From positions 872,501-936,500 of the forward strand of contig AFXB01000010.1 of assembly GCA_000238815.2 (NCBI GenBank): a DNA stretch of 64,000 nucleotides, read 5' to 3'. Shown piece after piece: positions 52,164-62,741 of this stretch (position 1 is its first letter; every line of letters starts with the position of its first letter). Origin of the DNA: SAR116 cluster alpha proteobacterium HIMB100 (GTDB lineage Bacteria > Pseudomonadota > Alphaproteobacteria > Puniceispirillales > Puniceispirillaceae). The notes below the pieces were generated by a model, which worked only from the letters and a program-made list of their open reading frames with translations, was not told the origin of the DNA and made no database searches. The position numbers and the translations under genes are program-made.

Positions 52164-52979
52164 TCAGAAACGTAGAGACAAACAGGACATGCCACCGTCG
52201 ATTTTGGCACATTCACTATTCGCTACAGTCAGGACATTAAAGCCATTTTCTCTCAACATGCTTTCGGTCTTGTCAAAACCCTCTGCCATGATGATATGGT
52301 CATTATATCTTATCATATTGGCGGCTTCTTCTTCTCCTTCCGGAGTTAAAAGGACAGTATAGTCCTCAAAACAGCCGCTGGCGGCCAAACGCTTCGTAGA
52401 TAACAGGCAATGGTCATCAATCAGGCTGCAATCAGTTTTAAAGTGTAATACTTCAGGCGGTATGTTGAAAACACGCACCAAAAAGCCGTAACGCTGAAGA
52501 ATGTTTTTCAGCTGTTCAGCACCTTCAACATTCGTTCTGGATGAGAGCCCTACCAATATTTCTTTTGGTGTGGTCAGAATGTCGCCTGCTTCAATAAAAC
52601 CTTCAGATATATCTTCAATATTATCGAATTTTTCAGACAGAACACCTCTCATTGGGGCTACCTCGCCTCTGCGGCTTTTGGCTCCAGGCCGCATCATGAC
52701 GGCTAGACCAGGCAAACATAGGGCTGTGTCTTCAACAAATTGAGCGTCCGGAAACTCTGTTAACGCTTCAAGCTCGGTTACTTCTGCTCCGGCATGTTTT
52801 AACGCATTTATATAATCGCGATGCTGTTTTATCATCACATCAATATCCACAGCTCCTCGGTCTTCAGAACGTAAGCCGTTGATAGCAGATAAAGCTGGGG
52901 TTAATGTCACGGCCTGGACAAATTTTGTTGCGTGGCTGCGCGCTGTGCTGGCATTTTTTGGGTGTTTCACGGCGGTCAT
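52164..52979 (-). CDS. Dimethylarginine dimethylaminohydrolase (DDAH)-like amidinotransferase-fold hydrolase
   Basis: A 271-residue pentein-fold protein with FVED at 81-84, Glu130-x-Gly-Asp133 in FIEAGDIL, the catalytic His179 in VLHFKTDCS and the nucleophile Cys266 in DGGMSCLSLRF. This set matches DDAH, which hydrolyses N-omega-methylated arginines to citrulline plus methylamines; arginine deiminases are longer. It is cytoplasmic, has no signal peptide and stands alone between two non-coding stretches. The release of methylated amines could link to amine use elsewhere, which is inference. Confidence 0.9.
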   Translation of the reverse strand: MTAVKHPKNASTARSHATKFVQAVTLTPALSAINGLRSEDRGAVDIDVMIKQHRDYINALKHAGAEVTELEALTEFPDAQFVEDTALCLPGLAVMMRPGAKSRRGEVAPMRGVLSEKFDNIEDISEGFIEAGDILTTPKEILVGLSSRTNVEGAEQLKNILQRYGFLVRVFNIPPEVLHFKTDCSLIDDHCLLSTKRLAASGCFEDYTVLLTPEGEEEAANMIRYNDHIIMAEGFDKTESMLRENGFNVLTVANSECAKIDGGMSCLSLRF

Positions 52980-53201: not shown

Positions 53202-53504
53202 TCAATCTATATCCAGCTCTTCCAACAGCGCTGCATAGGCCGCGCCATGCATATCTGTATCTTCTGGCGTGCCTTGAATGTGGGGACGCGGCAGGCTGAA
53301 TTTAATGACCTGTAAATCCGTGATATCAAACCGCTTTATTTGTGCCTCATCTGTCTGAAATAGGGCCGCTATGGTGGCGGTCGCCAACCGGTCGCGGACA
53401 TAGATGAAATTATCTTCATCAAAACAGAAAATATCTAGTGTAAGCCAAAACGGCCCAGCATTTTTAGACCTGATTTTGCGTACCTTGTGACGTAGTGCTG
53501 TCAT
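53202..53504 (-). CDS. DUF4387 family protein
   Basis: A 100-residue protein from the ATG at 53504, four bases after the AtuA stop. The longer frame to 53552 overlaps AtuA. Characteristic segments are KNAGPFWLTLDIFCFDEDNF (short form KNAGPFWLTLDIF), VIKFSLPRPHIQGTPEDTDMHGA (short form FSLPRP). DUF4387 genes regularly accompany AtuA-like proteins, and the two are sometimes fused. It is probably a small partner subunit. The reaction is not established. Confidence 0.88.
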   Translation of the reverse strand: MTALRHKVRKIRSKNAGPFWLTLDIFCFDEDNFIYVRDRLATATIAALFQTDEAQIKRFDITDLQVIKFSLPRPHIQGTPEDTDMHGAAYAALLEELDID

Positions 53505-53508
53505 CGGC

Positions 53509-54879
53509 CTAACTTTCAGTAATATCCAGCCGAAAGGCAGAGAGCGGGTCATCTATCGCCATAATATGGTGCAGGCAAAATTCATAGCTGGCGCCCCGGT
53601 CCATCTCTGGCGGTGAAAAGGGAAAGGCAAAGGTTGGCATTGGCTCATGCGGGGTCAGCGGCAGATGCAATAAATCAGGGTTCAGCAATTTTGCCGCCTC
53701 ATTTGCCTGCTGCTGTGTGGGGCTGGTAAATATAGCCATTACGCCAACTTCGCTTGCGCCAACGTCTAGGTTTTCAAGGGCGCCTAGGGCCGCATTACGT
53801 CCAATAACACGCAGCTCCAGTTTCGTATCGCTCAGCCCGCTCCGGGCCGCTTTTTTCTGGAACGATGCTGTCAGGGCTGTTATCCAGTCGTGTATATGCT
53901 CGCGGTAATGAGCATCCCGCACCAAAACAAAAGATACGGTTTGAAATCCGGCCTGCCTGGCGGCTTCCAATTTCACGGTATAGGGTGTGGTACTATGCCA
54001 GACACTGCCCTCTACGCGCACCGATACCTCATCAAGGGCAGTATAATTGGCTTTGCGCACATCCAGCCAGCCTCCTGGTTCATGTAAAATGTAAGGATCC
54101 GCATTCTCATACAGCATATGTGCAGATACAGTGTAGGGTGTCGCTGAGGTGTCTTCGCCAAGCGGGGTTATGGTAAAGCCAGCTTCATCAAATCGCATCA
54201 GGATTACGCCTGTATTGGGGTTGGTGGTAGCCAGCGCGCCACATTCTGCGATTTTTGCACCATGCCAGGCGGCCCCTTTATGACAGCCTCGCGCAATGGG
54301 CAGTGCGGCAATGATAGCAGTGTCCGTCGCCCGCCCGGCAATAATGATATCAGCGCCACTAGCCAAAGCGGCTTGAATTTGCTCAATGCCCGCTAGCGCA
54401 ACAATATTCGTTGTGTGCTCCAGTATTTGAATATCTAAATCTGGCGCCCCCTCAAGAGGCGTAATCGCCCCTTCGGTATAGGCCTGAATAATCACTTGTT
54501 TTTCTTGGCCGGATTTAAGGGTGGCGATTTTCAATTTTTCTCCGCGCTCTTTGGCGATCTCCAAAGTGATGTCCAGCATCCAATCCACTGCGCTGTCTGC
54601 ACCGCTAGTCCCGGCAGTGCCAATGAGCAGGGGCACTCCCGCCGTACTTCTTGCCGCCATTAAATTGGCCCAATCTGCCTTTGTTGCGGTGCGTGAATAT
54701 TTTGACCTGCCAGTCCCTAAGTAGTAGGGCCCGCTATCGGTTGATCCGCCATCAATTGCTATCAGGTCAGGCTCATGTTCCAGGCCGCGGGCCAGTGCTT
54801 CACGGTCATATGGTATTCCCAGTGCACCAGCGGGTATCAGGATTTTTGTTACTGCACTAGCCACTTCCTGTCTCTCCAA
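53509..54879 (-). CDS. AtuA-like (acyclic terpene utilization, DUF1446) protein
   Basis: A protein of up to 456 residues with the opening ILIPAGALGIPYDREALARGLE (short form GALGIPYD), AIDGGSTDSGPYYLG, LIGTAGTSGADSAVDW, GRATDTAIIAALP and ECGALATTNP. These belong to the family named after AtuA of acyclic terpene breakdown, whose reaction is not firmly known. The frame begins with TTG at 54879; the GTG at 54864 is preceded by GAGAGACAGGAA and may be the true start. It is divergent from the TTT transporter operon, and DUF4387 follows directly, so both probably act on the imported acid. Confidence 0.88.
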   Translation of the reverse strand: MERQEVASAVTKILIPAGALGIPYDREALARGLEHEPDLIAIDGGSTDSGPYYLGTGRSKYSRTATKADWANLMAARSTAGVPLLIGTAGTSGADSAVDWMLDITLEIAKERGEKLKIATLKSGQEKQVIIQAYTEGAITPLEGAPDLDIQILEHTTNIVALAGIEQIQAALASGADIIIAGRATDTAIIAALPIARGCHKGAAWHGAKIAECGALATTNPNTGVILMRFDEAGFTITPLGEDTSATPYTVSAHMLYENADPYILHEPGGWLDVRKANYTALDEVSVRVEGSVWHSTTPYTVKLEAARQAGFQTVSFVLVRDAHYREHIHDWITALTASFQKKAARSGLSDTKLELRVIGRNAALGALENLDVGASEVGVMAIFTSPTQQQANEAAKLLNPDLLHLPLTPHEPMPTFAFPFSPPEMDRGASYEFCLHHIMAIDDPLSAFRLDITES

Positions 54880-54951
54880 ATTGAAAATTATACACTTGCA
54901 GTACCGAAGTAAGCCAGATTAACCTATAGCCTATCACTACATTCTTACTTT
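54880..54951. promoter_or_regulatory. Divergent AtuA-TctC promoter region
   Basis: Only about 70 bases separate the AtuA and TctC starts, so the two directions must share overlapping control elements. No regulator gene is adjacent. Confidence 0.5.
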
Positions 54952-54958
54952 GGGAGGA
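54952..54958 (+). promoter_or_regulatory. Ribosome binding site deciding the tctC start
   Basis: GGGAGGA six bases before the ATG at 54965. The frame itself opens at a TTG inside this site, which cannot be the start. Confidence 0.85.
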
Positions 54959-54964
54959 AAAAAA

Positions 54965-55948
54965 ATGAAATCATGGACAATTGCGCGCAGAACGTTTCTT
55001 GCCGCAGCTTTGGCAACCGGTTTAGCTGGACCGGCTATGGCAGATGGTCATCAAATCGTGGATTCCATTCACTTTTTGATTCCCGGTGGCGCTGGCGGCG
55101 GCTGGGACGGTACCGCTCGTGGTACGGGTGAAGCGCTGACAAAATCTGGTCTGGTCGGCACCGCTTCTTATGAAAATATGTCTGGCGGTGGTGGTGGTAA
55201 GGCCATCGGCTATCTGATCGAAAACGCAGATAGTAACCACGGCACTTTGATGGTGAATTCCACTCCTATTGTTATTCGTTCCCTGACTGGCGTATTTCCG
55301 CATAATTTCCGGGATCTGACATTGGTTTCTGGAACCATTGGTGATTATGCTGCATTGGTTGTACCGGCAAATTCAGATATCAAATCAATGGGTGATCTGG
55401 TTTCAGCTTACAAGGCGAATCCATCTGGTGTCGCAATTGGCGGCGGGTCAGTTCCTGGCGGCATGGATCATCTGGTGGCGGCGATGGTTATGCAGGCTGC
55501 AGGGGCCAACCCGACAGAGGTTAAATATGTTGCCTATGATGCAGGTGGCAAGGCGATGGCTGCACTGCTGTCCGGCGAGATTAAAGCCCTGTCTACCGGC
55601 TTTTCAGAGGCAGTAGCCATGGCGAAAGCAGGTGAAGCAAATATCATCGGGGTGACCTCAAATGACCGTGTTGGTGCATTCCCGGATGCCAAGACCATGA
55701 AAGAGCAGGGTATTGATACCTATTTCGTGAACTGGCGCGGGTTTTTTGCCGCACCAGGTCTGCCAAAAGACAAGCTGGAAGCCTATCAAAAGGCGATTGA
55801 CAAGATGTACAGCACCCCGGAATGGGAAGCTGTTCGCGCTCGCAATGGGTGGGAAAATATCCACAACCCCGGCGATGACTTCATGACGTTCCTTGAAGGT
55901 CAGGAAAAGGAAATTGGCGATCTGATGAAACAGCTCGGTTTCCTTTAA
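54965..55948 (+). CDS. tctC: Tripartite tricarboxylate transporter substrate-binding protein
   Basis: A 327-residue Bug/TctC-family periplasmic protein. The signal peptide contains a twin arginine (IARRTFLAAALATGLAG, short form RRTFLAA) and ends near AMADG, so Tat export is possible. The mature protein has the family segments FLIPGGAGGGWD, ENMSGGGGGKAIGYL, GSVPGGMDHL, GGKAMAALLSGEIKALSTGF and FVNWRGFFAAPGLP. It binds a di- or tricarboxylate-like anion for TctBA. A strong terminator-like hairpin lies between it and tctB. Confidence 0.93.
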   Translation: MKSWTIARRTFLAAALATGLAGPAMADGHQIVDSIHFLIPGGAGGGWDGTARGTGEALTKSGLVGTASYENMSGGGGGKAIGYLIENADSNHGTLMVNSTPIVIRSLTGVFPHNFRDLTLVSGTIGDYAALVVPANSDIKSMGDLVSAYKANPSGVAIGGGSVPGGMDHLVAAMVMQAAGANPTEVKYVAYDAGGKAMAALLSGEIKALSTGFSEAVAMAKAGEANIIGVTSNDRVGAFPDAKTMKEQGIDTYFVNWRGFFAAPGLPKDKLEAYQKAIDKMYSTPEWEAVRARNGWENIHNPGDDFMTFLEGQEKEIGDLMKQLGFL

Positions 55949-55966
55949 GGCATAAAATGATGAATG

Positions 55967-56000
55967 GACCATCCAGCCAGTAAAGGCTGGGTGGTCTTTT
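55967..56000 (+). terminator. Terminator/attenuator hairpin between tctC and tctB
   Basis: GACCATCCAGCC (55967-55978) pairs with GGCTGGGTGGTC (55985-55996), with one G-T pair and a six-base loop, and is followed by TTTT. It shows that the upstream part of the frame opening at 55964 is not coding. Confidence 0.88.
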
Positions 56001-56017
56001 ACCAACGGGGGAAAATT

Positions 56018-56506
56018 ATGGCTTTGGACAGATGGATAGCGCTTATCATTGCGCTCATTTTTCTGATCTATGGCTATACAGCCTTTTTTCAGATGGATGA
56101 TTTGCTGCCGCCTATTTTGCAACGGAACCCTGTTTGGCCATCCAGTTTTCCAAAAATATTATCTGTAATTGGCATTATCGGCGCGGTTACCGTGCTGTTG
56201 AATCTTGAAAAGTCAGATAAACAAATCGGCGACGATATTGAAATATCTGACTGGCGGAAATACCAAGTCCTTGATGCGCTGGCCCTAATTGGCGGCATGG
56301 TAGTCTATGCATTGACCTTGCGGGACCTTGGGTTCTTGGCCGCAACTTTTCTGTTTTTATCCCTGGGATCAATCCTCTTGGGTGAGCGTCGTTTTCTTTT
56401 GCTAGGCAGTGTTAGTGCTTTGGCGAGTTACGGCATTTGGTACCTTGTAGATTCTGTGCTGGGAATTTACATGACACCCTTTCCTGCAATCTTGACTGGC
56501 GGTTAG
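56018..56506 (+). CDS. tctB: Tripartite tricarboxylate transporter small permease TctB
   Basis: A 162-residue membrane protein with four hydrophobic segments (about 5-25, 45-60, 90-110, 120-155). The ATG at 56018 follows GGGGG; the frame back to 55964 is only the read-through of a terminator hairpin. It is the small subunit of the TTT importer, paired with TctA ten bases downstream. Sequence is poorly conserved in this family, so the call rests on size, topology and position between tctC and tctA. Confidence 0.88.
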   Translation: MALDRWIALIIALIFLIYGYTAFFQMDDLLPPILQRNPVWPSSFPKILSVIGIIGAVTVLLNLEKSDKQIGDDIEISDWRKYQVLDALALIGGMVVYALTLRDLGFLAATFLFLSLGSILLGERRFLLLGSVSALASYGIWYLVDSVLGIYMTPFPAILTGG

Positions 56507-56516
56507 GGAGGGAGCG

Positions 56517-58025
56517 ATGATAGAAGGATTTCTGCTGGGCCTGTATACAGCTCTTTCAGTAAAAAATATGCTGATGGTTATCGGCGGCTGTATAATCGGC
56601 ACTTTTATCGGGATGCTGCCTGGTCTCGGACCGATGTCAATCATAGCGATCATGATCCCTGTAGCGATCTCTATTGGCGATCCAGCAGCCGCACTGATTT
56701 TATTAGCAGGCGTATATTATGGGGCGGTTTTCGGAGGGTCTACCTCCTCTATTCTTATCAACGCGCCGGGTGTTGCCTCTACGGTTGCAACAAGTTTTGA
56801 TGGCTACCCACTTACCCGTCAGGGCAAGGCAGGTAAAGCACTGACCATTGCGGCTATATCCTCCTTTGCTGGTGGCACGGTCGGGGCCATTTTGTTAGTA
56901 TTTTTCGCCCCGGCTCTGGCCTCTGTAGCGTTGCTGTTTCACTCTTCTGAATATTTTGCCCTGATGGTGGTTGGCTTATCTGCGATCGCCGCGTTTGCAG
57001 GGTCAGGTCAGGTCACAAAGGCGTTATTAATGACGATTGTTGGGCTGGCACTGGCAACTGTGGGAGAGGGTGCGCAATTTAATATGCCGCGCTTTACTAT
57101 GGGTATAATGGATTTACAGTCTGGTATTGGCTTTATCACCCTGGCTATGGCGATGTTTGCTATTCCTGAAACGCTGTTCCTTGTTCTGGATCCCAGTCGT
57201 TCTGGTAAGGCTGGGAGCAAGCAATCTGAAATCACTGATTTGCGGATTACAAAAGAAGAAGCAAAGAAAATCACCCCAGTAATTGGGCGGCAATCTTTGC
57301 AAGGGTTCTTGATCGGTGTGATGCCCGGCGCCGGCGCAACCATCGCTTCATTTCTGGGATATGCAGTGGAACGCAATATCGCTTCAGAGGAGGAGCGAAA
57401 GGAATTTGGCAAAGGCTCTGTAAAAGGGCTGGCCGCACCTGAGAGTGCCAATAATGCGGCGTGCACGGGTTCGTTTGTGCCGCTCTTAACTTTGGGCATC
57501 CCCGGTTCTGGAACCACAGCGATTTTGCTGGGAGCGCTGATTGCCCTGAATGTCTCACCTGGGCCGCGTTTGATGCAGGACCAACCGGAAATTTTCTGGT
57601 CTGTTATTATTTCAATGTATATCGGCAATGTGGTTTTATTGATATTGAATCTGCCGCTTATCCCTTATATCGCCAAGGTGCTCACAGTTCCGCGAAGCTT
57701 TCTCATTCCCTTTATTTTGTTTTTTACATTGATGGGCGCCTATATTGGCCAGAATAACGCCACCGAATTATTGTTTCTTGTTGGGCTTGGAGTAGCGGCA
57801 ACGATTTTCCGCTTTGCATCATTCCCGCTTGCACCATTATTGATCGGTTTTATTCTGGGGCCGATGCTTGAGGATAATTTCTCTCGTGCTACTCAGCTTT
57901 ATGACGGGGTAAGCTTTATCTGGGAAAGGCCCATGACAGCGGTACTATTATGTGTGGCTGTCCTGCTGATTGTGTTGCCTGCCATGCGTTCACGTAGGGC
58001 TGCGAAGAAACAGGCTAAAGGATAG
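56517..58025 (+). CDS. tctA: Tripartite tricarboxylate transporter large permease TctA
   Basis: A 502-residue protein with about 11-12 membrane helices. Diagnostic parts are the opening IGTFIGMLPGLGPMSIIAIMIP (short form GMLPGLGP), YYGAVFGGSTSSILINAPG, GVMPGAGATIASFLGYAVER and APESANNAACTGSFVPLLTLGIPGSGTTAILLGA (short form PESANNAA). It is the ion-driven translocating subunit. AGGGAGGGAG precedes the ATG. The CoA transferase gene starts six bases later, linking import directly with activation. Confidence 0.95.
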   Translation: MIEGFLLGLYTALSVKNMLMVIGGCIIGTFIGMLPGLGPMSIIAIMIPVAISIGDPAAALILLAGVYYGAVFGGSTSSILINAPGVASTVATSFDGYPLTRQGKAGKALTIAAISSFAGGTVGAILLVFFAPALASVALLFHSSEYFALMVVGLSAIAAFAGSGQVTKALLMTIVGLALATVGEGAQFNMPRFTMGIMDLQSGIGFITLAMAMFAIPETLFLVLDPSRSGKAGSKQSEITDLRITKEEAKKITPVIGRQSLQGFLIGVMPGAGATIASFLGYAVERNIASEEERKEFGKGSVKGLAAPESANNAACTGSFVPLLTLGIPGSGTTAILLGALIALNVSPGPRLMQDQPEIFWSVIISMYIGNVVLLILNLPLIPYIAKVLTVPRSFLIPFILFFTLMGAYIGQNNATELLFLVGLGVAATIFRFASFPLAPLLIGFILGPMLEDNFSRATQLYDGVSFIWERPMTAVLLCVAVLLIVLPAMRSRRAAKKQAKG

Positions 58026-58031
58026 GAATTT

Positions 58032-59216
58032 ATGCTTTCTGGCATTCGGGTTCTTGATCTGACAAATGTTCTGGCCGGGCCCTTTTGCTGTCATCAATTG
58101 GCCCATATGGGGGCAGAAGTTATTAAGATTGAGGCGGTTGGACGTGGCGATTTAGCTCGTCAGCTTGGCGCTGACAAGCAGTTAAGTGCCGCGCAGATGG
58201 GCATCTCTTTTCTGGCACAAAATGCGGGCAAGAAATCACTGACCCTTGATTTGAAATCAGACAAAGGCAAGGAGATTTTTCGCAAACTGGTTCAAGGTGC
58301 AGACGTGGTTGTTGAAAATTTCAGACCTGGTGTTATGGCACGTCTTGGTCTGAATTACCCGGTGCTTAAAAAGCTGAATCCACAGCTGATTTATTGCGCA
58401 ATCTCAGGCTTTGGCCAGACCGGTCCGCTAAGCCCGCGCCCTGCATATGACCAGATTATTCAAGGGCTTTCCGGGGTGATGAGCATTACCGGAAAGCCTG
58501 AAGAGGATCCACTTAGGGTGGGGTTTCCATTGGCAGATACTATTGGTGGGCTGACCGCAGCAATGGCGGTTTCAGCCGCGCTTAACAAGCGCCCAAGGGG
58601 ACAGATGATTGATGTCTCTATGCTTGATTCCGTTCTGACCACAATGGGGTGGGTTGTGTCAAACTATCTGATTGGCGGCATTCAGCCTGCACAGCATGGT
58701 AACGAAAACACCACCTCCGCGCCGTCTGGGACCTTTCAGACAGCAGACGGGCTGCTCAATATTGCCGCAAATGAAGAACGTCAATGGCAAGCGTTAATCA
58801 AACACATCGGATGTCCGCATCTGGCTGACGATGATCGCTTTGCCACGCGCGATAACCGCAAATTGCACCGACAAGCCCTAAGCCGCGCGCTTGATTCCTA
58901 TCTGAGACAAAAGTCAGCAACTGAATGGGAGCGAGAGTTAACCGATATCGGTATCCCGGCCGGGGTAGTGATGACAGTTCCTGAAATCCTTGCACATCCG
59001 CATACTGCCCATCGTGGCTTGCTTTCCCAGTTTGATAATATACAGGCAGCAACAGGACCTGTTTCGGTGATGCGGACGGGGTTTCAAAGCGATGGTCAGC
59101 CTGCATCTGTAGATACGCCGCCGCCCGTGCTGGGGGCGCATAATCACGAGCTGCTGAAAGATTTGGGATATGATGAATCTGCTATTGAACAGCTTAGTCA
59201 GGAGGGCGTCATATGA
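58032..59216 (+). CDS. CaiB/BaiF family CoA transferase
   Basis: A 394-residue class III CoA transferase with the opening GIRVLDLTNVLAGPFCCHQLAHMGAEVIKIE (short form GAEVIKIE), ENFRPG near 95-100, YCAISGFGQTGP near 121-132 and the catalytic Asp169 in PLADTIGG. It would move CoA from a donor such as acetyl- or succinyl-CoA to a carboxylate, most likely the acid imported by TctCBA. The stop overlaps the citryl-CoA lyase-like start by four bases (ATGA), so the thioester it makes is probably cleaved at once. Confidence 0.93.
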   Translation: MLSGIRVLDLTNVLAGPFCCHQLAHMGAEVIKIEAVGRGDLARQLGADKQLSAAQMGISFLAQNAGKKSLTLDLKSDKGKEIFRKLVQGADVVVENFRPGVMARLGLNYPVLKKLNPQLIYCAISGFGQTGPLSPRPAYDQIIQGLSGVMSITGKPEEDPLRVGFPLADTIGGLTAAMAVSAALNKRPRGQMIDVSMLDSVLTTMGWVVSNYLIGGIQPAQHGNENTTSAPSGTFQTADGLLNIAANEERQWQALIKHIGCPHLADDDRFATRDNRKLHRQALSRALDSYLRQKSATEWERELTDIGIPAGVVMTVPEILAHPHTAHRGLLSQFDNIQAATGPVSVMRTGFQSDGQPASVDTPPPVLGAHNHELLKDLGYDESAIEQLSQEGVI

Positions 59217-59992
59217 GCGATGTATCAGATTGGTGGACAACCTCTATTATTGATATGGAACCTGGCCGGATAGAAATTCGCGGACAAGCTATTCAGGACC
59301 TTATTGGGCATTTAAGTTTTGCAGAAATGATCTGGTTGATGTTGCGTGGTGATAGGCCCGGCAAGGAGCAAGCTGAATTGCTTGAGGCAGCGTTGGTCGC
59401 GTCGGTAGATCATGGTCCGCAAGCCCCGTCTATTGCAGCCGCCAGGATGGCGGTAACCTGTGGTTTGGGGCTGAACGGGGCGATGGGAACAGCGGTGCAT
59501 ATGCTTGATGATGTGCATGGCGGCGCTGGTCAACAATTTGTGTCTATGTTGCAGGATTTGGCAAGCCAGCCAGAAAGGGATAACCTTCGCCTTGCTGAAT
59601 ATCTGGCCAACTACCAGCAGGATATAAACCCCTATATACCAGGATTTGGTCATCGCTTTCACAAGCCGGTTGACCCGCGCTCGCCGCGCCTGATGGCACT
59701 GGTTGAAATTGCCCAAAATGAACATATTGTATCGGGTCAATTTATGAATATCGCTTTGCAAATTGAGGCAGTCCTCGCCGAGATGAAGGGCAAGCCTGTA
59801 CCGATGAATATTGATGGGGCTTCTGCTGTGATCTATGCAGAACTCGGCTTTGCGCCGGAGCAAGCCAGAGGGCTGTTTTGTCTGTCTCGCTCGGTAGGTG
59901 CCATGGCACATGGCTATGAGCAGATGCAACAAGGTGGACGAAATAAAGGACCCACGCCCCCCCATTACCGTTGGCGGTATGACAAGGGCTGA
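59213..59992 (+). CDS. Citryl-CoA lyase-like citrate synthase family protein
   Basis: A 259-residue protein, shorter than citrate synthase (about 430), as in stand-alone citryl-CoA lyases. The active-site residues of the fold are kept: His102 in DDVHGGAG, His147 in GFGHRFHK and Asp201 in NIDGASA. It should split a citryl-CoA-like thioester into acetyl-CoA and an oxo acid. With the CoA transferase upstream this gives an ATP-free route for citrate or a relative. Whether the substrate is citrate itself or a branched analogue is open. Confidence 0.87.
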   Translation: MSDVSDWWTTSIIDMEPGRIEIRGQAIQDLIGHLSFAEMIWLMLRGDRPGKEQAELLEAALVASVDHGPQAPSIAAARMAVTCGLGLNGAMGTAVHMLDDVHGGAGQQFVSMLQDLASQPERDNLRLAEYLANYQQDINPYIPGFGHRFHKPVDPRSPRLMALVEIAQNEHIVSGQFMNIALQIEAVLAEMKGKPVPMNIDGASAVIYAELGFAPEQARGLFCLSRSVGAMAHGYEQMQQGGRNKGPTPPHYRWRYDKG

Positions 59993-60014: not shown

Positions 60015-60746
60015 TTACTGTAGGCAGCAGCGCATTTCAAAGGCTAATTTTTGAGCAAGGACCTCTACCCCTTCGACAGGCACCATGTGGCCGCATTTCT
60101 CTAAAATGACAAGTTCGCCATTTAGATGCGTTGACAGTTCCTGAGCTTCTTTCAAAGACCGGTTTTGGTCTTCTCTGCCATGCAGAATTATTGTTTTAAT
60201 CTGCAGGTCTTCAAGGTTGAGTCCCGTTTGGTCTATTCCTCTTGAAAGAGACGCTTGGATCTCATCAAATTGGTCTTTGGAAAGGGTCAAAATTTGCCTG
60301 CGAATACTCTCGATCAACTCCTGTGTTGTGGTATAGAACCACCCTTCAGACATTTGTCGTATGAAATTATTTGTAAGCGAGGGTTTTATCCCTCTGGCTA
60401 AAAAACCTTGCGTTGTATTAGGCCCTTTTGGCCTCCCAATCCCTGCACCACATAGAAATAAGGCTTCAGGTGGAGAACGCCACTGAAGAGCGCATTGTAA
60501 CGCAATTCCTGCTCCCATTGAATGCCCTAAAAGGATAGGTTTTGTATGCCCATACTTATTTTCTAACTATGCAGCCTGTTTCACATAAGTAAGTTCTTTA
60601 GTGTGGTCGCTTCCGTGTCCTAAAAGAGTTGGGCTGTATAACTTAATGTTGGCATCAATCTTTGGCTCCAAAGCCTCTCTAAGAGAGTCGAAAAGATAGC
60701 CACCTAGGAATGCACCGTGAAGGCATAGAATAGTTTTTTTTATCAT
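60015..60746 (-). pseudogene. Alpha/beta hydrolase interrupted by an in-frame TAG
   Basis: Read from the ATG at 60746, the frame gives an alpha/beta hydrolase opening (KKTILCLHGAFLGGYLF, short form LCLHGAFLGG) and runs 59 codons to TAG at 60567-60569. Directly after it the same frame continues with LLGHSMGAGIALQ, the nucleophile elbow, then TIILHGREDQN (Asp region) and KCGHMVPVEG (catalytic His). The three catalytic residues all lie beyond the stop, so a truncated product would be inactive; internal initiation at the ATG at 60518 would miss the nucleophile. The full length of 243 residues is normal. Either a recent nonsense mutation or a base error explains it. Confidence 0.82.
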
Positions 60747-61144: not shown

Positions 61145-61987
61145 ATGATGTACAATAACAGCTATCAAAAGCCAGTGAAGTGGCAAAACCCAAATGTGAA
61201 GCTGTTCCCGCATCAGGTAGGATTAACCTGCCCGCCACATGATTTTGATGCCGCGCCGTCTGATTTCCTGCGTATGGCGCCCGAGACAGTCGGCGTACAT
61301 GGTCGTATGCTGCATGTTCCTGATTATCGGCATAAGCTGGATCAGCGTAAGCAGAATTTTGGCCTGTTAGAAGAATTTGTTGAATGTATGGCCAATAATG
61401 GGGCCGATGTATGTGGCCAGGTTGGCTCCAACTGGGTGCATGCAAGCGGTTTAGGTGTTGAGGGTATTGAACAGCATTGTGACATGCTCAGTGATAAATA
61501 TGAAACCCCCTTCCATATGGCGGGTTATGCGATGGTTGAAGCATTGCGGGACCAGAATGTCGAAAAAGTAGCGCTCAATGCCTGTTATCACCGGGATAGC
61601 TGGTACAAAGGCACAGTCGGTTTTCTGAAAGAAGCTGGGTTTGATGTCGTCTGGGCTGGCAATTTCCATGATCAAGGCTGGTTTGAGAGCCAACAGCAGG
61701 TTGATGAATGTATCTGGTGCTTTGATGAAGATTTGCTGTGGAAATCGTTTGATTATATTGCTGACAAGGCCCCAGATGTAGATGCCTATCTCATTAATGG
61801 CATGTCTAATTACCGCAGGTCATCAGATGGTTTGGCTCAGCGCCCCATGCATCATACCGCGGCATTAGAGGCGCGTTTAAACAAACTAGTAGTTGGTCAT
61901 GACACAGCACTCTATTGGCGGCTCTTCAAAACTTTGGGAGTTAAACCGGAAAAGCCTTATGGGCAATTGCTGGCCTCTTTATCTTAA
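61145..61987 (+). CDS. Aspartate/glutamate racemase superfamily-like protein (maleate isomerase-like fold)
   Basis: A 280-residue protein whose layout resembles arylmalonate decarboxylase and maleate isomerase: GADVCGQVGSNWVHASG near 88-104, YETPFHMAGYAMVEALRDQNVEKVALNACY (about 118-147) and YKGTVGFLKEAGFDVVWAG. The usual first active-site Cys position seems to be Val, and the second conserved Cys region reads LINGMSNYR without Cys, so the chemistry may differ or be lost. Start at 61145 or 61148. Followed after 16 bases by a sulfotransferase. I am fairly sure of the fold, not of the function. Confidence 0.6.
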   Translation: MMYNNSYQKPVKWQNPNVKLFPHQVGLTCPPHDFDAAPSDFLRMAPETVGVHGRMLHVPDYRHKLDQRKQNFGLLEEFVECMANNGADVCGQVGSNWVHASGLGVEGIEQHCDMLSDKYETPFHMAGYAMVEALRDQNVEKVALNACYHRDSWYKGTVGFLKEAGFDVVWAGNFHDQGWFESQQQVDECIWCFDEDLLWKSFDYIADKAPDVDAYLINGMSNYRRSSDGLAQRPMHHTAALEARLNKLVVGHDTALYWRLFKTLGVKPEKPYGQLLASLS

Positions 61988-62003: not shown

Positions 62004-62741
62004 ATGCATAAGATTGTTGCTTTATGGGCGGTCCCGCGCTCTACCTCGACAGCTTTTGAATGGATGATGCGCCAGCGCGGCGATATTGACTGTCTGCATG
62101 AGCCCTTTGGTGAGGCCTGGTATCAAGGTGAGGACCCGCTTTGGCCACGGCTGACAGCTGACTCAGTTCACACACCAGGGCTGACTCTCGAGACTGTTTG
62201 GCAGTCCATGCTGGCAAAGGCGAAAAGACGTCCAGTCTTTTCAAAGGATTTTCCGCTCTATATCGATCATATGTGGGACGATGAGATGTTATCGCATTTC
62301 ACACATTCTTTTCTCATCCGAAATCCAGCCATGACCATTACGTCCATGTATGATAAATGGCCTGATTTTCATGAAAAAGAGGTTGGTTTTGCTGAGCAGC
62401 GCCAGCTTTTTGAGCGTATCTGGGATAAGACAGGTAGCCCGCCGCCAGTGATTGATTCAGATGATCTGTTGGAACATCCAGCGGTGATTGTGAAGAAATG
62501 GTGTGATGCAGTTGGTCTGCCCTTTATCGATTCAGCTTTAAGCTGGGAACCAGGCGCGAGAGATGAAGTGAGCTGGTGGGATGGCGGCAGCTTCCATGCC
62601 AATCTGCGTAATTCAGATGGGCTGAAACCACAGTCGCGCAAGAGCTACATCAAGATTGACGAGGCGCCAGATCGGGTGCGTGAGGTTTATGAGCGGGTCT
62701 TGCCACATTATGAATTTATGCATCAACACCGCATCTGCTAA
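62004..62741 (+). CDS. Sulfotransferase family protein
   Basis: A 245-residue PAPS-dependent sulfotransferase-like protein. The 5'-phosphosulfate loop is AVPRSTSTAFEW (Arg12-Ser13-Thr14), and the 3'-phosphate-binding region is FLIRNPAMTITSMY near 100-113. It would transfer sulfate from PAPS to a hydroxyl or amine of a small metabolite. The gene for PAPS synthesis begins 17 bases downstream, so donor supply and transfer are in one operon. The acceptor is unknown. It could also be a non-catalytic member of the superfamily, since the family is diverse. Confidence 0.85.
   Translation: MHKIVALWAVPRSTSTAFEWMMRQRGDIDCLHEPFGEAWYQGEDPLWPRLTADSVHTPGLTLETVWQSMLAKAKRRPVFSKDFPLYIDHMWDDEMLSHFTHSFLIRNPAMTITSMYDKWPDFHEKEVGFAEQRQLFERIWDKTGSPPPVIDSDDLLEHPAVIVKKWCDAVGLPFIDSALSWEPGARDEVSWWDGGSFHANLRNSDGLKPQSRKSYIKIDEAPDRVREVYERVLPHYEFMHQHRIC

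Follow-up and report, generated by a model that had tools for sequence, protein, structure and literature searches.

Which acid does a seven-gene locus of the SAR116 alphaproteobacterium HIMB100 take up, and how is that acid broken down? The locus lies in a 64,000-nt stretch of contig AFXB01000010.1 (positions 872,501 to 936,500, here called the window) of a 2.46 Mb genome. It encodes a tripartite tricarboxylate transporter (TTT; TctC, TctB and TctA), a family III coenzyme A (CoA) transferase (CaiB), a citrate-synthase-fold citryl-CoA lyase (CCL) and, on the opposite strand, the AtuA and DUF4387 proteins. The original prediction, made from the DNA letters, joined all seven genes into one pathway for a citrate-like acid. 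We propose instead that, in a single unit of carboxylate catabolism, one importer for citrate or a similar tricarboxylate serves two cleavage modules that are alternatives to each other, and we give this proposal an even chance of being correct.

One importer and two probably exchangeable modules

All seven open reading frames (ORFs) lie at the coordinates first given, and each matches its Pfam family above the curated cut-off; TctC, TctB and TctA are all among them, making the importer a TTT system. On the plus strand the order is TctC-TctB-TctA-CaiB-CCL, with spacings of 69, 10 and 6 nt and then a 4-nt overlap. These genes form a tight five-gene operon that is conserved in relatives. DUF4387 and AtuA are transcribed divergently from the minus strand, separated by 4 nt without overlap. 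Overlapping genes had been predicted, and this held for CaiB and CCL (ATGA, 59213-59216), the sole true gene overlap at the locus. The named relatives with a near-identical locus are SAR116 alphaproteobacteria. The full seven-gene set is present in four other SAR116 genomes, and the arrangement is therefore not due to chance.

TctC orthologues in alphaproteobacteria are 54-93% identical, and their partners vary. Eighteen of the 21 genomes with TctCBA-CaiB-CCL contain no DUF4387 anywhere, a count from genomes whose completeness is not given. Two SAR116 genomes (G011 and G021) combine this importer (TctC 86-88% identical) with AtuA-DUF4387, and lack both CCL and an orthologous CaiB. Both modules accompany the importer in the window and in G005, G006, G023 and G033, that is, in five SAR116 genomes, and also in Thalassobium R2A62. 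Since each module is found alone with the same importer, AtuA-DUF4387 and CaiB-CCL look like alternatives, and the pattern fits two interchangeable ways of cutting one imported acid. This separate occurrence leads us to reject an obligate seven-gene set, and it does not support the single seven-step pathway.

The importer resembles the TctCBA and BctCBA citrate systems in its TctC-TctB-TctA order and in that its relatives carry a divergent two-component gene pair. It differs from the systems with TctDE or BctDE in that the window locus has no TctDE and has AtuA-DUF4387 in its place. In R2A62, G011 and G021 AtuA and TctC are separated by a set of TctD, TctE and a binding protein; at the window locus this set was either lost or never there.

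The SAR116 operon, at 77-95% protein identity, was also found on a contig (NZLM01000030.1) of a metagenome-assembled genome labelled Euryarchaeota, which is most likely explained by faulty binning.

The original prediction that TctCBA-CaiB-CCL imports an acid, activates it with CoA and cleaves it is well supported by the conserved operon and by intact predicted catalytic residues. CCL exceeds the cut-off of the NCBIfam citryl-CoA lyase equivalog and matches the solved citryl-CoA lyase 6hxp (E = 6.5e-37). Its catalytic His/His/Asp (H102, H147 and D201) and its citrate-synthase-type arginines (R148, R156, R226 and R243) are invariant in 16 of 16 aligned sequences. The citryl-CoA lyase of the reverse tricarboxylic acid (TCA) cycle works with citryl-CoA synthetase, whereas the window CCL belongs to a catabolic operon and has a family III CoA-transferase as its partner. 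In CaiB, D169, which we take to be the PLAD-motif aspartate used in catalysis, is invariant in 8 of 8 aligned sequences, as expected for the family that includes formyl-CoA transferase and the succinate-glutarate/3-hydroxy-3-methylglutarate CoA-transferases. Unlike the characterized members, CaiB falls far under every NCBIfam equivalog cut-off (glutarate, oxalate, mesaconate and carnitine CoA-transferases; best score 286.7 versus 750), and consequently its acceptor probably differs from theirs.

A search with CCL gave 69 loci in named genomes. CaiB lay directly upstream in 61 of them, and orthologous TctC and TctA were within the locus in 29. The CCLs of G367 and G213 lie, with no CaiB beside them, in a different setting linked to a tripartite ATP-independent periplasmic (TRAP) transporter. 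Actinobacterial CaiB-CCL pairs (Streptomyces and Rhodococcus; L137 and L138) are followed by an AcnA-type aconitase, possibly forming an operon for cleavage of aconitate or citrate.

Under the proposed mechanism, TctCBA would import citrate or a closely related tricarboxylate. In the first module CaiB would move CoA onto the acid, with acetyl-CoA or succinyl-CoA as possible donors, and CCL would cleave citryl-CoA to acetyl-CoA and oxaloacetate; with acetyl-CoA as donor, the net reaction would be citrate to acetate and oxaloacetate. In the second module AtuA and DUF4387 would act as one CmlAB-family enzyme with a bound adenine nucleotide, splitting the free acid to an oxoacid and acetate (or activated acetate). 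The overall cleavage logic is that of ATP-citrate lyase and of CitDEF citrate lyase, neither of which is among the seven genes.

AtuA and DUF4387 as relatives of citramalate lyase

AtuA and DUF4387 had been described as proteins of unknown reaction, perhaps a hydratase or isomerase. At the family level this description is outdated. Sequence searches against solved structures gave one clear match for AtuA, chain A of 9erq ('Citramalate lyase, subunit A (cmlA)', E = 2e-82), and one for DUF4387, chain B of the same entry (DUF4387/cmlB, E = 1.6e-7). An AlphaFold model of AtuA (predicted local distance difference test, pLDDT, 89) matched a single Protein Data Bank (PDB) entry below E 0.001, 9evf_A ('Citramalate lyase - ADP - pyruvate complex'), with a template modelling (TM) score of 0.92. 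Like CmlAB, the window pair consists of an AtuA-family large subunit and an adjacent DUF4387. AtuA is 34-36% identical to CmlA over its full length and shares with it a conserved polar core: 15 residues (D38, S41, D43, R178, D181, K204, E207, C208, H249, Y252, E253, R283, K298, E300 and E372) are kept in at least 43 of 44 aligned AtuA proteins, including E. coli CmlA. The RSKNAGP motif of DUF4387 is invariant in 17 relatives, including E. coli ECs_0759. Judged by sequence and modelled fold, the AtuA/DUF4387 family is a lyase family whose chemistry is already known from CmlAB. Because the two proteins match CmlA and CmlB, lyase activity is expected, and on these matches we reject a hydratase or isomerase role.

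In E. coli O157:H7 the close homologues of CmlA and CmlB are ECs_0760 and ECs_0759, which lie in the methylaspartate cluster next to a fumarase gene (fumD in the literature). A 2015 paper noted a DUF1446 gene in that cluster but could not identify the citramalate-removing enzyme (PMC4682846). We also considered whether 9erq is the E. coli Sakai protein itself, and the comparison showed a close relative whose sequence is not identical. Acyclic terpene utilization (the Atu cluster) was rejected since the annotated genes surrounding the locus include none for terpenes or geranyl-CoA. Our searches of the open literature returned no paper on DUF4387, nor any that describes CmlAB or a citrate route through CaiB-CCL. 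With the founding lyase of the family structurally solved only recently, the locus is less an entirely unknown pathway than a good test case.

In order to place the window AtuA, a tree of 44 proteins including E. coli CmlA was used. The window protein falls inside a well-supported 25-member clade apart from E. coli CmlA, which lies outside the 28-row branch containing the window AtuA; the latter thus does not group with CmlA sensu stricto. The AtuA gene adjoins a TTT importer in 19 of the 25 clade members and in none of the 19 proteins outside it, counts that ignore relatedness. This linkage involves at least two transporter types, that of the window and a second whose TctC is 28-33% identical. 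Alignment revealed changes specific to the TTT-linked clade, among them the extra basic residues K55, R72 and R423, absent from CmlA; the window AtuA also has T180 in place of Tyr. K55, R72 and R423 could hold an additional carboxylate. We take the window AtuA, on the tree and alignment, to be not a CmlA orthologue but a member of a separate TTT-linked subfamily of the citramalate lyase family. In two related genomes of one genus (L027 of G039 and L032 of G051) AtuA is split into two overlapping frames, and these copies are possibly frameshifted or decaying.

What is new here is this TTT-linked AtuA/DUF4387 subfamily and its apparent interchangeability with the CoA-transferase/citryl-CoA lyase pair. 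More tentatively, and with the chances somewhat against us, we suggest that it may be a new enzyme that cleaves citrate or some other tricarboxylate with the use of a nucleotide and independently of CoA. It would be a counterpart of CitDEF and ATP-citrate lyase and, in marine alphaproteobacteria, interchangeable with the CaiB-type CoA-transferase and citryl-CoA lyase behind one importer. The vague DUF pair becomes a testable enzyme, beside an independent CoA-based route likely doing the same job.

Candidates for the imported acid

Of 385 genomes sampled evenly across the class, 21 had a close TctC, and their neighbouring genes were compared. In G207 both modules are replaced by a divergent ATP-citrate-lyase-like pair with a PF16114 citrate-binding domain, 74 bp after TctA of the TctCBA operon (L265 11114-15119). 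In G367 the tricarballylate dehydrogenase proteins TcuA and TcuB are encoded directly 3' of TctCBA-AtuA-DUF4387. The window genome has its own TcuA/TcuB elsewhere (L238 7834-10354, C10 about 499.8 kb), with GntR-like and AbrB-like neighbours. TctDE two-component genes adjoin the importer in relatives, and a regulator of this type also accompanies TTT systems known to take up citrate (PMC5812351). The AcnA-type aconitase behind the Streptomyces and Rhodococcus CaiB-CCL pairs is a further clue to a tricarboxylate. Many orthologous importers have no dedicated catabolic gene nearby, as would be expected if the substrate were a TCA-cycle acid. Taken together, these neighbours make citrate or another tricarboxylate a more likely substrate than citramalate, in line with the citrate-like acid of the original prediction.

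Several points weigh against this reading. The clues to the substrate come from relatives and not from the window, and TTT systems accept many non-tricarboxylates (PMC5812351). Six of the 25 members of the window AtuA clade have no TTT nearby. The only known reaction of the AtuA/DUF4387 family uses citramalate, a five-carbon diacid. Finally, the TCA cycle lets aerobes consume citrate with no need of a lyase, and a dedicated lyase therefore suggests another acid, for example 2-methylcitrate.

If citramalate were the imported acid, AtuA/DUF4387 would be a true citramalate lyase yielding pyruvate and acetate, and CaiB-CCL would act through citramalyl-CoA to give pyruvate and acetyl-CoA. The solved family member is indeed a citramalate lyase with pyruvate bound, and its E. 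coli O157:H7 homologues adjoin the fumD mesaconase in the methylaspartate cluster (PMC4682846). However, the CmlA branch does not include the window AtuA, which also carries the extra basic residues. Neither a mesaconase gene nor a methylaspartate gene was seen next to the window locus, where an importer and a CoA-dependent lyase are found, and the importer contexts hold citrate-binding, aconitase and TcuAB genes. The known citramalyl-CoA lyases have, to our knowledge, the CitE/HpcH fold and not the citrate-synthase fold. We therefore consider citramalate unlikely.

The case for 2-methylcitrate (or methylaconitate), from which CCL would release propionyl-CoA and oxaloacetate while AtuA/DUF4387 cleaved the free acid, comes from G330 and from the window genome itself. 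The orthologous importer of G330 is arranged as TctC-PrpB-TctB-TctA and adjoins PrpF, RraA and an aconitase. In the window genome no protein reaches the PrpB cut-off, the only match being an isocitrate-lyase-like one below it, and hence this genome would need another route for this acid. Yet the G330 aconitase is AcnA-like (791 versus the AcnD cut-off of 1420), PrpF is below its equivalog cut-offs, and unbranched tricarboxylates are what TcuAB and the citrate-binding domain suggest. We regard 2-methylcitrate as a rather improbable substrate.

A single linear pathway, with CaiB and CCL fed by AtuA/DUF4387 acting as a hydratase or isomerase, is in keeping with the divergent locus common to five SAR116 genomes and with the aconitase linked to some CaiB-CCL pairs, but it is very improbable given that the family is a solved lyase and that each module occurs without the other.

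Once the substrate is established, a conserved route of carbon uptake could be named for SAR116 and the roseobacters, both abundant marine groups. Many genes now annotated as 'acyclic terpene utilization' or 'citryl-CoA lyase' would also be corrected.

Gene starts, coordinates and flanking genes

Gene starts were assigned from alignment-conserved positions together with Shine-Dalgarno/ribosome sites. With the reassigned starts, AtuA and TctC remain divergent as predicted, but the gap between them is about 100 nt rather than a shared 70-base promoter. A promoter scan gave 11 promoter-like sites versus 8.8 ± 3.0 expected in shuffles, and no promoter or terminator stands out. A search of the 64-kb window for RNA families and tRNAs found none.

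Features of the locus, with positions numbered from the first nucleotide of the window
Feature	Position	Strand	Basis
DUF4387 protein, CmlB-like small subunit	53202..53504	-	likely ATG start 53504 (longer ORF to 53552); PF14330 78.9 bits
AtuA-family protein, CmlA-like large subunit, TTT-linked subclade	53509..54864	-	likely GTG start 54864; PF07287 71 bits
AtuA/TctC divergent intergenic region	54865..54964		sequence reading
TctC, periplasmic solute-binding protein of TTT transporter	54965..55948	+	likely ATG start 54965; PF03401 96 bits
TctB, small membrane subunit	56018..56506	+	likely ATG start 56018; PF07331 62 bits; conserved start MALDRW
TctA, large membrane subunit	56517..58025	+	PF01970 467 bits
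CaiB, family III CoA-transferase (CaiB/Frc type)	58032..59216	+	PF02515 407 bits; Asp169
CCL, citrate-synthase-fold citryl-CoA lyase	59213..59992	+	Citrate_synt 124 bits; NF004864 399.5 bits (cut-off 261)

Adjoining CCL, on the minus strand at 60015-60745, is an alpha/beta hydrolase gene broken by one in-frame stop codon; in G367 an intact alpha/beta hydrolase follows a related CaiB (L208 9166-10140). The protein encoded at 61145-61987 has a sub-threshold match to arylmalonate decarboxylase, and the ORF 3' of it (62004-62741) is sulfotransferase-like by eye. On the other side of the locus, 52164-52979 encodes a dimethylargininase-like protein whose best NCBIfam score is 203.8 versus a cut-off of 450, and which probably has a different specificity.

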